Below are positions 55,121-63,520 of a stretch of 64,000 nucleotides of DNA, one piece after another. The stretch comes from Flavobacterium jumunjinense (GTDB lineage: Bacteria > Bacteroidota > Bacteroidia > Flavobacteriales > Flavobacteriaceae), in contig NZ_CP091285.1 in the NCBI RefSeq assembly GCF_021650975.2, forward strand, positions 558,001 to 622,000, read 5' to 3'. How positions within the stretch are numbered: the first letter of the stretch is position 1; each line of letters opens with the position of its first letter. The notes beneath the pieces are model-generated. The model searched no databases. It was not told the origin of the DNA and saw only the letters and a program-made list of their open reading frames with translations. The translations under genes were made by a program, and so were the position numbers.

Positions 55121-55198
55121 TAACGTACAACAATTAATATGCTAGATGGAAAGATAACGATTTGTGTAAACATCCGTTATCTTTAAGCATAACTTCAC

Positions 55199-55465
55199 AA
55201 AAAAGCCGTTGCAACAAAAAATTGCAACGGTTTTTTTTTATGGAGACAAAACTATCTAAATAACCAAAATTTAAAACTTTTTTGCCTCATTACTAAAAAC
55301 TGTAAAATTACTATTTACCTTCTCTATATTTTTACAAACACAATAAAAGTAAACAATACTTTTTGACAGAAACAAACCTTATCTACGTATTTATAAGTTT
55401 TGCAAGTTTGAAAAATATAGTTTAGATTTGAAAAAGCATGACACTTATCATACATATAAACAAGT
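55199..55465. repeat. Repeat A, copy 2
   Basis: Same layout as copy 1: hairpin GCCGTTGCAAC...GTTGCAACGG-type terminator (55201-55238), conserved spacer, one TACGTA box near 55384-55389 (the pair in copies 1 and 3 is reduced by a deletion), promoter and palindrome. The preceding 60 bp (AAGATAACG ... CGTTATCTT, AAGCATAACTTCAC) also match the end of repeat B, so B and A can be fused. Confidence 0.82.
55400..55453 (+). promoter_or_regulatory. Promoter and operator in repeat A copy 2
   Basis: TTG (55400-55402), 20 nt, TAGATTTG (55423-55430), then GCATGACACTTATCATAC (55436-55453), the palindrome with two changes relative to copy 1. It drives the gene at 55489. Confidence 0.68.
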
Positions 55466-59112: not shown

Positions 59113-59354
59113 ACCGAACGCACAATCGTGTAGACAGCTCTATTAGTAAATAACAGAGTGCGCCTCTCTATTTAGCGAAGCGGTCTCATGAAATACCAAT
59201 AAATAAAATAAACGCTTCATTTCATACTCCACCGAGCGTACTTACGTACTCGGTGATTTGTAAAAAGATGAGCTAAATTCAATGTAAACATCAGTTATCT
59301 TTAAGCATAACTTCACAAAAAAACCGTTGCAACAAAAATTGCAGCGGTTTTTTT
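59113..59354. repeat. Repeat B, copy 1
   Basis: About 240 bp shared with 63032-63271: CCTCTC...TTAGCGAAGCGGTCTCATG, ATACCAATAAATAAAATAAA, CGCTTCATTTCATAC, the hairpin CACCGAG...CTCGGTG and a GTTATCTT...AAGCAT section ending in a GCAAC/GTTGC terminator with poly-T. It starts 6 bp after the lipoprotein stop. Confidence 0.82.
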
Positions 59355-59422
59355 ATTCCTTGGTATTCCTAAGTCTGACGTTGGTTTACTTCATATTTCA
59401 ATCTTAAATCTACAACCGCAAT

Positions 59423-59839: not shown

Positions 59840-61285
59840 ATGACTGAACAACAATTTTTAACACAACTAGAAGCATTACTATTAGATACTCAAACATACG
59901 CTGATAGTATTCCAATTGCATATAAAAATTATGCTTTACCAATAATTACAACAGACAATGAACAAGTCTACAAATTTATAGTAGATCAAAATTGGCAAGA
60001 TCTTAAAAGCTTTTCAGAAGCGAAACTTTTAAACTTAGAATCTAAAATGCTAGATATGGCAACTCATCAATATCAAATAAATTCTTTAACAGAAAGATTA
60101 TTCAACTTAAAAGATGCCTTCAAAAAGCATTATAGAGAACCTCAAACAAAAGATGATTGGGTAGCTAAAAAAAATGCACTTATTACCAGTTTAAACAACA
60201 ACAATACACCACAAGATAAAATTGATGAATTTATAAAAAAAGTTGGAGGAACAGGCGGTCTAAATGCATATAAATATCAATTAAAGCAATATGACATTCT
60301 TGCTAAATATTTAAATTATGCTTTTGAGAGACATTTAGCTCATTCTATGTATCATTATTCTGCTATTGTTTTTTCTGATTATAACATAAATATTCAAGTG
60401 AATCAAAATATTACTTTCAACACATCTACCAAAATTAGAAGTTTAAGTAATAGCATAAAAAGGAGAAACTCAACTCTTCTTAATAATATTAAAGATAACA
60501 ATCAAATAAGACTTAAAAGTAACAGCAATAATTTAAACCATTGGACAGGTAACACTATAAATCAATTTGGATTACCTATTTTAATTCATTGTTTCCAAGA
60601 AAGAATTTTACAAAATTCATCATTCTTATCAGATGGAAAAAAAGCATTAAAAGCGAGTAGTTTAATTCAAAATTTACTTTTTAATAAAGCTTCATCTAAA
60701 TGGATTAATTGGACTAGTGGTTTTCATAAAGAATTAAATCTATCAGAAAATTTATTTGATAAAAAAGAAAATTTAATTAATGAAGATATAACACTTACAG
60801 AAAATTTAATTTCTATAAAAAAAATACTCAAAAACCCAAATCAGTATAACAATCAAGAAATAGTAATTAGAGGAGTTGTAACAAACCTAGAAGTAAAACA
60901 TATAGGGCCAACAAAAGTTATTTCAACAGCAGATATTTCAGATTCAAAAGGGCGAATTTTAAAAGTGTGTTTACCCCATATAAAACTAGACTCAGGAGGA
61001 TTAGTAAACAATTCGTTTGTTTACATTTCAGGAAGATTTTTAGTAAACAATCCAGAAGCAAATAATGCGCAAGCACTTTCAATAGATAGGTTATCAATAG
61101 GTGAACTATCTAAAACTAATTGGATAGCATGGGCAAGATATGAACTAAGAAATATATTTGAGCCAATACCCCATAACTTAAACCTAAAATTCACCCTTGA
61201 ATCAGGAAATAATGGCGCTTTGAATCCAATTAAATACAATGTTACATTTTCAAAAAACAATTTATTAAACTTTAAAAACATATAA
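59840..61285 (+). CDS. Unknown protein with OB-like segment, first gene of TGT-like operon
   Basis: A 481-residue protein, no signal peptide, family not recognised. The first 300 residues are mainly helical (LTQLEALLLDTQTYADSIP, KLLNLESKMLDMATHQYQI). Residues about 332-415 (KNPNQYNNQEIVIRGVVTNL, then SDSKGRILKVCLPHI and VYISGRFLVN) have the strand pattern of an OB fold, usually a nucleic-acid-binding module. The C-terminal 60 residues look beta-rich. It is 2 bp before the next gene. A nucleic-acid-recognition role beside a base-exchange enzyme is inference. Confidence 0.6.
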   Translation: MTEQQFLTQLEALLLDTQTYADSIPIAYKNYALPIITTDNEQVYKFIVDQNWQDLKSFSEAKLLNLESKMLDMATHQYQINSLTERLFNLKDAFKKHYREPQTKDDWVAKKNALITSLNNNNTPQDKIDEFIKKVGGTGGLNAYKYQLKQYDILAKYLNYAFERHLAHSMYHYSAIVFSDYNINIQVNQNITFNTSTKIRSLSNSIKRRNSTLLNNIKDNNQIRLKSNSNNLNHWTGNTINQFGLPILIHCFQERILQNSSFLSDGKKALKASSLIQNLLFNKASSKWINWTSGFHKELNLSENLFDKKENLINEDITLTENLISIKKILKNPNQYNNQEIVIRGVVTNLEVKHIGPTKVISTADISDSKGRILKVCLPHIKLDSGGLVNNSFVYISGRFLVNNPEANNAQALSIDRLSIGELSKTNWIAWARYELRNIFEPIPHNLNLKFTLESGNNGALNPIKYNVTFSKNNLLNFKNI

Positions 61286-61287
61286 TT

Positions 61288-61584
61288 ATGGCTTGTGAAA
61301 TAGAAAACGACGCTTTAGAGAACGCAAAACACAATCTTACTGAAGCCAATGATGCATGGTGGGAAGCAACTGGAGACATGACAGTTAGCACTTTAGGTGT
61401 TATAGGAGCAACCCTAGCAGAAGGGATGTCATTAGGATTAGCAACTATGGTTTTTGGTTCTGCGGTAATCAATGAAATTAGATCTGCAGCAAAAATGGAT
61501 GATGCAAATGAAGACTACGATTTAGCAGAAGACCTCTATAATGACGCATTAACAGCATATTGTAATTGTTTAGATCTAAACTAA
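61288..61584 (+). CDS. Small helical protein, second gene of TGT-like operon
   Basis: A 98-residue protein. An N-terminal helix (EIENDALENAKHNLTEANDA), a hydrophobic Gly/Ala-rich segment (about 33-60, VSTLGVIGATLAEGMSLGLA) that may cross or enter a membrane, then an acidic helix ending YCNCLDLN. No family recognised. Its stop overlaps the start of the next gene (TAATG), so the two are translationally coupled. Confidence 0.6.
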   Translation: MACEIENDALENAKHNLTEANDAWWEATGDMTVSTLGVIGATLAEGMSLGLATMVFGSAVINEIRSAAKMDDANEDYDLAEDLYNDALTAYCNCLDLN

Positions 61585-63050
61585 TGAAAAAGGAAATCCC
61601 ATATTACAAAAGAGATAAGTATATATTCATTTCTAACTTAAATGATGTTACTGCAAACGAACAAGAACCTTTGTCTTTAAAAAGAGAAGGATATTTATTG
61701 TCAGAATACTATTCTTCAAAAAGTAACGAAGAATTAGCTAATTATGTAAAAATAAAAAACAACTTACTCATTAGCGACAATGGAAATTTTTCAAAAATGA
61801 AGGCAATTTCTAAGTTATTTGAAAAAAAAGGATTCGCAATATTAAATAAAGCAATAAATGAGGAAAGTGAAATAGGCAATGTTAGTGAATTTGTATTAAA
61901 TGAAAGATTAGAATTAATCAAGCTTATAGAAATCGAATGTAAAAAATCTATGGCAACTACAAATTTTAATACCATTTTAGAGAATCAAGTTTACATTAAA
62001 CCTGATTATATTATATGTTTTGAGGACTTTAATATACCTGTATTAATGATGTGTGGATTAATGCATCCAGTTTTCAAACCAAAAGCTTTAGATGTTAAAA
62101 ATTATCAACTGCAAACTTCTGAAATATTCAATAAGCAAATCAAAGGAGACTTTGGTCAAATTGATAGCTTATCTCAAATAAATAAATTCAAAGTATTACA
62201 TTCCTATGATTTCAATAGTGCAGTTCAATCTGTTGAAGTCGCTAATAAATCAAAAGCTAATGGTTATGCTATAAGTTTTGGTGGCCCAATGAAAAGTAAA
62301 AGATGGATAACATCTCTTAATATGGGAGAAAAAGAGATTACTTTTAAAGAAAAACTTCCAGAACCCTATTTAATTTCTACAGCAATTTCTTTAGGTGTAA
62401 ATAAAAAATTAGATAATAAAACACCTGTTCATATCTTGGGAGTTGGCACACCAATACTAATTGCTTTATTTGGTTATTTATTTAATAATTCAAAAGCCAT
62501 AAGTATTGATTCTACTGCACCATTCAAAGACGCATATGCAGGAACTCTATATGGTTCTAAATCTGCATTTTTAAAAATGGATATGTATAAAGTAGCTGCA
62601 AATTGTTTAATTGAGAACAAAGCTTACAAATCGTCAACACCATTCTTTAAAAGATTTGAGAAACAATTCCCTTCTAATTGGTCAAACCTAAGAACTGAAT
62701 TGAAAATAAATAAGAATTCAAGCATAAAGTCAGTAGCTAATTTACTGATTGAAAACCCAAGTTTAGTTGAAAAATACATTCCTTTTTTCTCTAAAATGAG
62801 GTCTGGAAATGATGAAATGATAAACATTCTTAGAACTTCACGAGCTGGTCATAATTATTGGGTTTTAAGAAAAATTTGTATTTCAGTTAGAAATAGAATG
62901 AACGACCCAATTAAATTAGAAAAATGGACTGAATATCAAGTTAACAGATACATTAAAGTAACTAGCGAAAAATGGGGCTTAGCAGTTTTAGAATCATTTA
63001 GAATTGCGAAATTACATAATACTGTTAAAAATAACGAACGAATCGAGTAG
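61584..63050 (+). CDS. Divergent tRNA-guanine transglycosylase (TGT)-like enzyme
   Basis: A 488-residue protein starting at the ATG within TAATG. Motifs follow the TGT order: LLISDNGNF (Asp about residue 65, like SDSGGFQ of TGT), GYAISFGGPMKSKR (about 231, like YAIGGLSVGEP), VHILGVGTP (about 281, like YLMGVGTP) and SIDSTAPFKDAYAGTLY (Asp about 309, where TGT has its nucleophile in FDCVLPTR and NGTLF). The CxCxxC zinc site of TGT is not seen. The TGT superfamily swaps guanine for 7-deazaguanines in tRNA and, in DpdA, in DNA. Target and base are unknown. The C-terminal 140 residues are a helical extension. Confidence 0.6.
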   Translation: MKKEIPYYKRDKYIFISNLNDVTANEQEPLSLKREGYLLSEYYSSKSNEELANYVKIKNNLLISDNGNFSKMKAISKLFEKKGFAILNKAINEESEIGNVSEFVLNERLELIKLIEIECKKSMATTNFNTILENQVYIKPDYIICFEDFNIPVLMMCGLMHPVFKPKALDVKNYQLQTSEIFNKQIKGDFGQIDSLSQINKFKVLHSYDFNSAVQSVEVANKSKANGYAISFGGPMKSKRWITSLNMGEKEITFKEKLPEPYLISTAISLGVNKKLDNKTPVHILGVGTPILIALFGYLFNNSKAISIDSTAPFKDAYAGTLYGSKSAFLKMDMYKVAANCLIENKAYKSSTPFFKRFEKQFPSNWSNLRTELKINKNSSIKSVANLLIENPSLVEKYIPFFSKMRSGNDEMINILRTSRAGHNYWVLRKICISVRNRMNDPIKLEKWTEYQVNRYIKVTSEKWGLAVLESFRIAKLHNTVKNNERIE

Positions 63051-63271
63051 ACTGTCCTGCTAGAAACTAGCAAGGAAAGCCTCTCAATTTAGCGAAGCGG
63101 TCTCATGAAATACCAATAAATAAAATAAACGCTTCATTTCATACAACACCGAGAGCACTTACGTACTCGGTGGTTTGCAAAAAGATGAGTTAAGTTGAAT
63201 GTAAACATCCGTTATCTTCAAACATGACTCCACAAAAAAGCCGTTGCAACAAAAATTGCAACAGCTTTTTA
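63032..63271. repeat. Repeat B, copy 2
   Basis: Matches 59113-59354 over most of its length, including the AGCGAAGCGGTCTCATG and CGCTTCATTTCATAC blocks and the CACCGAG/CTCGGTG hairpin. It overlaps the 3' end of the TGT-like gene and merges into repeat A copy 3 through the shared terminator hairpin. Together the copies bracket the operon and the UmuC remnant as direct repeats 3.9 kb apart. Confidence 0.82.
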
Positions 63272-63465
63272 ATACAGACAAAACTATCTTAATAACGAAA
63301 ATTTAGAACTTTTTTCGCTCCATTACTAAAAACCGTAAAAAAACCATTTACTTTCTTATTAATTTTACAAATACAATGAAAGTAAACAATACTTTTTGAC
63401 AGAAATAAACCTTCTCTACGTATAAATACGTACAAAAAACAGCTAAAAATACGTATTTATACGTA

Positions 63466-63520
63466 TTGCAAGTTTGAAAAATATAGTTTAGATTTGAAAA
63501 AAGTATGACGCTTGTCATAC
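63466..63520 (+). promoter_or_regulatory. Promoter and operator in repeat A copy 3
   Basis: TTG (63466-63468), 20 nt, TAGATTTG (63489-63496), then GTATGACGCTTGTCATAC (63503-63520), the operator with one changed base. Confidence 0.7.

Follow-up and report, generated by a model that had tools for sequence, protein, structure and literature searches.

A patchily distributed three-gene operon of Flavobacterium jumunjinense encodes a deeply divergent TGT-fold protein with a putative OB-type and a small hydrophobic partner

Inspection of a 64,000-nt stretch of the Flavobacterium jumunjinense genome (contig NZ_CP091285.1, positions 558,001 to 622,000 of the forward strand; hereafter, the window) revealed three tightly packed open reading frames (ORFs; Table 1), the last of which encodes a protein predicted to have the fold of tRNA-guanine transglycosylases (TGTs). 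TGT enzymes act on tRNA (Tgt, TgtA) or on DNA (DpdA). Genes 1 and 2 are separated by a gap of 2 nt, while the TAA stop codon of gene 2 and the ATG of gene 3 share one base (TAATG). Both the three ORFs and this coupling had been described in an earlier reading of the window made without database searches (hereafter, the sequence-only reading); its coordinates and sizes proved correct on re-checking, and the ORF calls bear out the TAATG overlap. The ORFs are not chance, since two further genomes carry homologs of all three side by side with the gene order preserved.

Table 1. Features of the operon and of its flanking repeat, in window coordinates or, for the candidate catalytic residues, in residues of gene 3 (aa, amino acids).
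Feature	Position	Strand	Remarks
Gene 1	59840-61285	+	ORF, 481 aa
Gene 2	61288-61584	+	ORF, 98 aa
Gene 3	61584-63050	+	ORF, 488 aa; TGT-fold enzyme
Candidate catalytic residues of gene 3	D65, E147/D148, GVG 286-288, D309
Left direct-repeat copy, 233 nt	59124-59356	+	85% identical to 63041-63273
Right direct-repeat copy	63041-63273	+	overlaps final 10 nt of gene 3
Partial repeat copy	55165-55257

The predicted structure of the gene 3 product is, at high confidence, a TIM barrel of TGT topology, and its closest solved structure among the matches listed is the archaeosine TGT TgtA (1iq8; 10-15% identity). This TGT-type barrel supports the superfamily assignment made by the sequence-only reading, and the conserved acids lie at the ends of its strands. 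In TGT biochemistry, an aspartate late in the barrel serves as the nucleophile and a second one follows an early strand, with the same roles in TGT and DpdA. The candidate counterparts, which were equated with the TGT acids by order and place and not by residue-level superposition, are invariant: D309 is kept in 73/73 aligned rows and D65 in all 70 rows having a letter there. The TGT-like motifs quoted in the sequence-only reading are likewise conserved across the gene 3 family (109 clusters within an E cut-off of 0.001), with SDNGN found in 103 members and H[IV]LGxG[TS]P and S[IVF]D[SA][ST] in 107 each. That gene 3 encodes a deeply divergent member of the TGT-fold superfamily with conserved acids is strongly supported.

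At the sequence level, no significant relatives of gene 3 were returned by Pfam, NCBIfam, PADLOC or PDB profile searches, and, up to E 1, the window protein matched neither the canonical TGT family (PF01702) nor the DpdA model. Weak family-wide matches (to 35 Pfam and 29 NCBIfam families, the first 25 being listed) include the NCBIfam TgtA model, matched by 9 of 73 members (best E 0.01), the most for any NCBIfam model listed, and the unrelated TIGR03981, with a better E (0.002) in five members. The zinc cysteines, noted as lacking by the sequence-only reading, are indeed absent, with CxCxxC in 0/109 family members. However, this does not discriminate the family from canonical TGTs: among 30 of the 40 matches in the phylum of the window, 11 carry CxCxxC and 19 do not, including the separate TGT encoded in the same genome (G000), so the missing cysteines are weak evidence of divergence. 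The canonical TGTs without the motif are L010-L017 (L017 being the one from the own genome), L021, L022, L024, L025 and L027-L033.

Motif spacing differs, the medians being 82, 83, 54 and 24 in the gene 3 family and shorter (54, 73, 31 and 20) in canonical TGTs, as obtained from sequences with all five motifs (86/109 family members and 28/30 TGTs). DpdA resembles the family in the absence of the zinc motif (0/8) and in its motifs DSGAF and VDSSSW, reminiscent of SDNGN and SIDST. In contrast, the DpdA model matched only 2/73 members (best E 0.014), with no profile match along the motifs, and in seven of eight dpdA loci the adjacent or next-but-one gene is of the QueC-like, GTP cyclohydrolase or ParB-like kind, none of which is found in the operon; the eighth has hypothetical neighbors only.

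Two further genomes, L039 and L036, both drawn from the order of the Flavobacteriales metagenome-assembled genome L002, share the arrangement of the window: a putative oligonucleotide/oligosaccharide-binding (OB) protein of 482 aa, a 99-aa small protein and a 477-aa TGT-like protein in L039, and products of 457, 99 and ~697 aa in L036. The sequence-only reading had staked its proposal on the three genes occurring together, and homologs of all three were found to do so. In L002, the TGT-like gene is followed by the OB protein and then by two calpain-type proteases, each with a small protein after it, and no gene 2 homolog is detectable there. These proteases (L002:10760-15405) have long N-terminal regions, and the small proteins measure 81 and 100 aa, the latter being WXG100-like (E 0.011, below cut-off). 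Across the four loci read, the OB partner is thus present in four and the small protein in three.

Gene 1 comprises an N-terminal region of ~310 residues and a putative OB-type segment at approximately residues 337-430. Along its full length it shares 46% of its residues with the L039 partner, and identity to P0111 is 33%; within the OB part, it also matches the L036 (E 4e-8) and L002 (E 7e-5) partners. The OB-like segment claimed by the sequence-only reading finds some support in weak profile matches of two of the five partner proteins scanned, to DNA polymerase III alpha (DnaE; residues 317-461 of the L039 partner, E 0.0044) and RecG (residues 333-404 of the L036 partner, E 0.04), but the window's own gene 1 gave no DnaE- or RecG-type match.

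The gene 2 product has a cysteine near the N-terminus (MxC; MC in L039), a hydrophobic Gly/Ala-rich middle and a cysteine near the C-terminus. Its hydrophobic segment, already seen in the sequence-only reading, is present and moderate (best 19-residue Kyte-Doolittle mean 1.55, compared with 2.07, 1.46 and 2.15 in three relatives). Identity to the 99-aa proteins at the same place is 39% for L039 and 21% for L036 (pairwise BLASTP alone is weak for the latter, E 0.045), and C3, W24 and C94 are among 10 invariant columns in six aligned rows, two of them identical. A profile search retrieved three proteins besides itself, one of which duplicates the L039 sequence included in the query; for one match, the tag is consecutive with the tag of a TGT-like protein (ACI837_000946 and _000947). 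Given their conserved ends and hydrophobic middle, these proteins of 98-99 aa might themselves be the product of the operon, with the TGT-like/OB pair modifying or protecting them before export or membrane insertion, and the WXG100-like protein following a calpain in L002 would fit such peptide or effector maturation. Yet there is no transporter- or secretion-like gene among the three, and the OB protein would be left without a role, and we regard this explanation as very improbable.

Within the gene 3 family, 62 clusters measure 440-530 aa, 39 exceed 640 aa and 8 have other lengths. The long forms possess ~220 additional N-terminal residues, for which a PDB profile search found nothing under E 0.25. 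Pairing with an OGG-type glycosylase domain is known from type IV cyclic oligonucleotide-based antiphage signaling systems (CBASS). The model of the long-form domain is mostly helical, but TGT entries filled the listing of its structure search, and Pfam DUF6308 scored below cut-off in 10/10 long forms scanned; one member (P0026) bears a precomputed DUF6308 label. We do not claim such a glycosylase for this domain. In a phylogeny of 73 rows, 14 of them long, three changes are needed to account for the long form, and the window protein clusters with P0002 and P0003 (support 99/96), of which P0003 is labeled Ningiella, a gammaproteobacterium. Both Bacteroidota and Pseudomonadota are represented among the family labels, which would fit gene transfer across phyla.

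Gene 3 is rare. It was detected in 1/299 and 1/395 genomes of two sets (the own genome only in each), in 2/240 genomes of another, one being the search center G679, and in 3/399 genomes, with G679 and G822 already known from the 240-genome set. The latter count follows the removal of G984 (E 1.9e-4) as spurious, its ORF being a 359-aa protein in a housekeeping neighborhood. Phage and plasmid collections yielded no relative, nor did viral contigs, where 10 stretches fitted the patterns but failed tblastn. A scan of genome contigs found one locus; as only one sequence served as its query, it tests spread weakly. That gene 3 belongs to an operon of patchy distribution, together with genes for an OB-type and a small hydrophobic protein, is strongly supported.

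Such a distribution bears on the idea of a dispensable RNA modification module, in which the TGT-like enzyme and the OB protein would modify tRNA or another RNA without any role in conflict. The fold and the OB-type partner would suit this explanation, as would the tRNA-modifying activity of the closest solved structure among the matches listed, and the L036 and L039 operons indeed sit among ordinary genes. However, a rare and patchy module would be less expected here, and neither the hydrophobic small protein nor the L002 calpains would have a role, making this alternative unlikely in our view.

The operon is bracketed by the two complete repeat copies, with a start-to-start distance of 3917 nt. 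By eye, the 3′ end of the repeat contains a terminator-like hairpin and a T run; its folding z-score is –5.0, better than all 200 shuffles, and an Rfam search of the 233-nt repeat gave no match at the gathering score (best E 0.089). Window positions 63051-63290 have 12 matches in the genome, counting the segment itself and the left copy. The two copies could recombine with each other and so mobilize the operon as a single block. The copies may also enclose a neighboring block, like cassette borders.

Downstream of the operon (window 63586 to genome C1:624429; L057:587-3430) lie genes for an HNH_5 protein, a DpnII/MboI-type nuclease-like protein and a PLD-type protein with an HSP70-like part. 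The neighboring HNH gene reported in the sequence-only reading is real (PF14279, E 3.1e-9), and upstream of it lies an inverted repeat (window 63407-63475) whose 26-nt arms are 85% complementary and separated by 17 nt. In a PADLOC analysis of seven neighboring proteins, defense nuclease models were matched by the PLD protein (DrmC, E 8.5e-11; DpdK, E 1.6e-4), the DpnII-type protein (a helical-REase model, E 5.4e-5) and, weakly, the HNH protein (PtuB, E 0.0031), with no CBASS model among the matches. The near relative G1147, in which gene 3 was not searched for, shares the upstream aminotransferase (86% identical), after which its 5.7-kb contig carries other genes.

The chief rival to a nucleic acid-directed activity is a role like that of Cap10, which likewise places a TGT fold within a small accessory operon, that of type IV CBASS, and which, according to the accessible part of PMC11996544, binds the deazaguanylated N-terminus of its CD-NTase. 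By analogy, the gene 3 protein may no longer edit nucleic acid and may instead bind a nucleobase-modified partner end, for which the N-terminus of the small protein, with its cysteine, would be a candidate; a cysteine at position 2 or 3 and another near the other end occur in 6/6 rows. In contrast to type IV CBASS, the three-gene operon contains no CD-NTase and no QueC-like Cap9 or other QueC-type ligase gene, and the genome, too, gave no full-length QueC match. The glycine N-terminus described for known acceptors of N-terminal deazaguanylation (NDG; MGGS, or MGTS in the putative acceptor QatB) in the accessible part of PMC13279940 is absent here as well, and a pure binder would not obviously need the invariant acids. 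Cap10 was not among the 50 rows listed in structure searches of gene 3, a listing that does not exclude it. Overall, we consider a Cap10-like role improbable.

We favor, with a probability of roughly 40%, an accessory conflict or stress system in which the TGT-fold enzyme and the OB protein carry out a step on nucleic acid and the small protein provides the output. D309 would act as the nucleophile that opens an N-glycosidic bond, and D65 and E147/D148 would bind or activate the base, as in TGT and DpdA. The OB protein may supply or recognize the nucleic acid, replacing the RNA-binding parts of ordinary TGTs, and the small hydrophobic protein would be a membrane-active or membrane-anchoring output component. 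Indeed, the invariant acids argue for a working enzyme and the OB-type partner for a nucleic acid substrate. The output role is proposed because the third slot varies, one relative having calpain proteases downstream and no gene 2-like protein; this changing component argues for an effector slot. The TGT/OB step is the more secure half of the proposal and the effector half is a guess.

Several observations weigh against such a system. Foldseek TM-scores of gene 3 are moderate (0.43-0.48 by query, root-mean-square deviation 8-11). In hhalign, the score of profile A2 against 30 TGTs (27.5) was exceeded by 3/100 column shuffles, leaving TGT homology unproven by sequence, and against eight DpdAs it reached 16.8 (shuffle mean 16.6) in an 18-column match away from the motifs. 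By its own control, hhalign is too weak here, the probability for DpdA and TGT, a known pair, being no higher than 6.7%. PADLOC matched none of the three operon proteins; among 10 other family members, six had no match and four matched assorted, dissimilar models weakly (best E 0.0033). The L036 and L039 loci lie in no evident defense island, and the small protein could be a substrate rather than an effector. The genome also gave no full-length QueC match, with two matches over ~60/210 positions just above cut-off (23.2 and 22.7 bits vs. 22). Salvage would thus be the probable source of a 7-deazaguanine substrate, unless a different base is used; a canonical TGT without a full-length QueC match suggests salvage of queuosine precursors. 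The proposal of the sequence-only reading, a modification or defense system built on a TGT-like and an OB protein, holds in part: the TGT fold, the conserved unit and, weakly, the OB partner stand, but PADLOC and the missing QueC-type gene lend it nothing. More tentatively still, and with the odds against it, the operon may represent a new conflict system, in which an OB-guided TGT-fold enzyme uses base exchange to sense or edit tRNA or nucleic acid of foreign origin, an event that sets free an exchangeable effector, the small membrane-active protein here and calpain proteases in the relative.

We found no description of this gene trio in the open-access literature, which is not proof of absence, and the accessible part of PMC13329287 mentions neither TGT nor Cap10. 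The operon is small enough for testing on one plasmid. So far, the TGT fold is known to serve on tRNA, on DNA and, lately, in protein-end recognition (Cap10); a separate family that crosses phylum boundaries, keeps its acids invariant and comes with an OB-type partner of its own and a changeable third component would extend the fold to yet another use.
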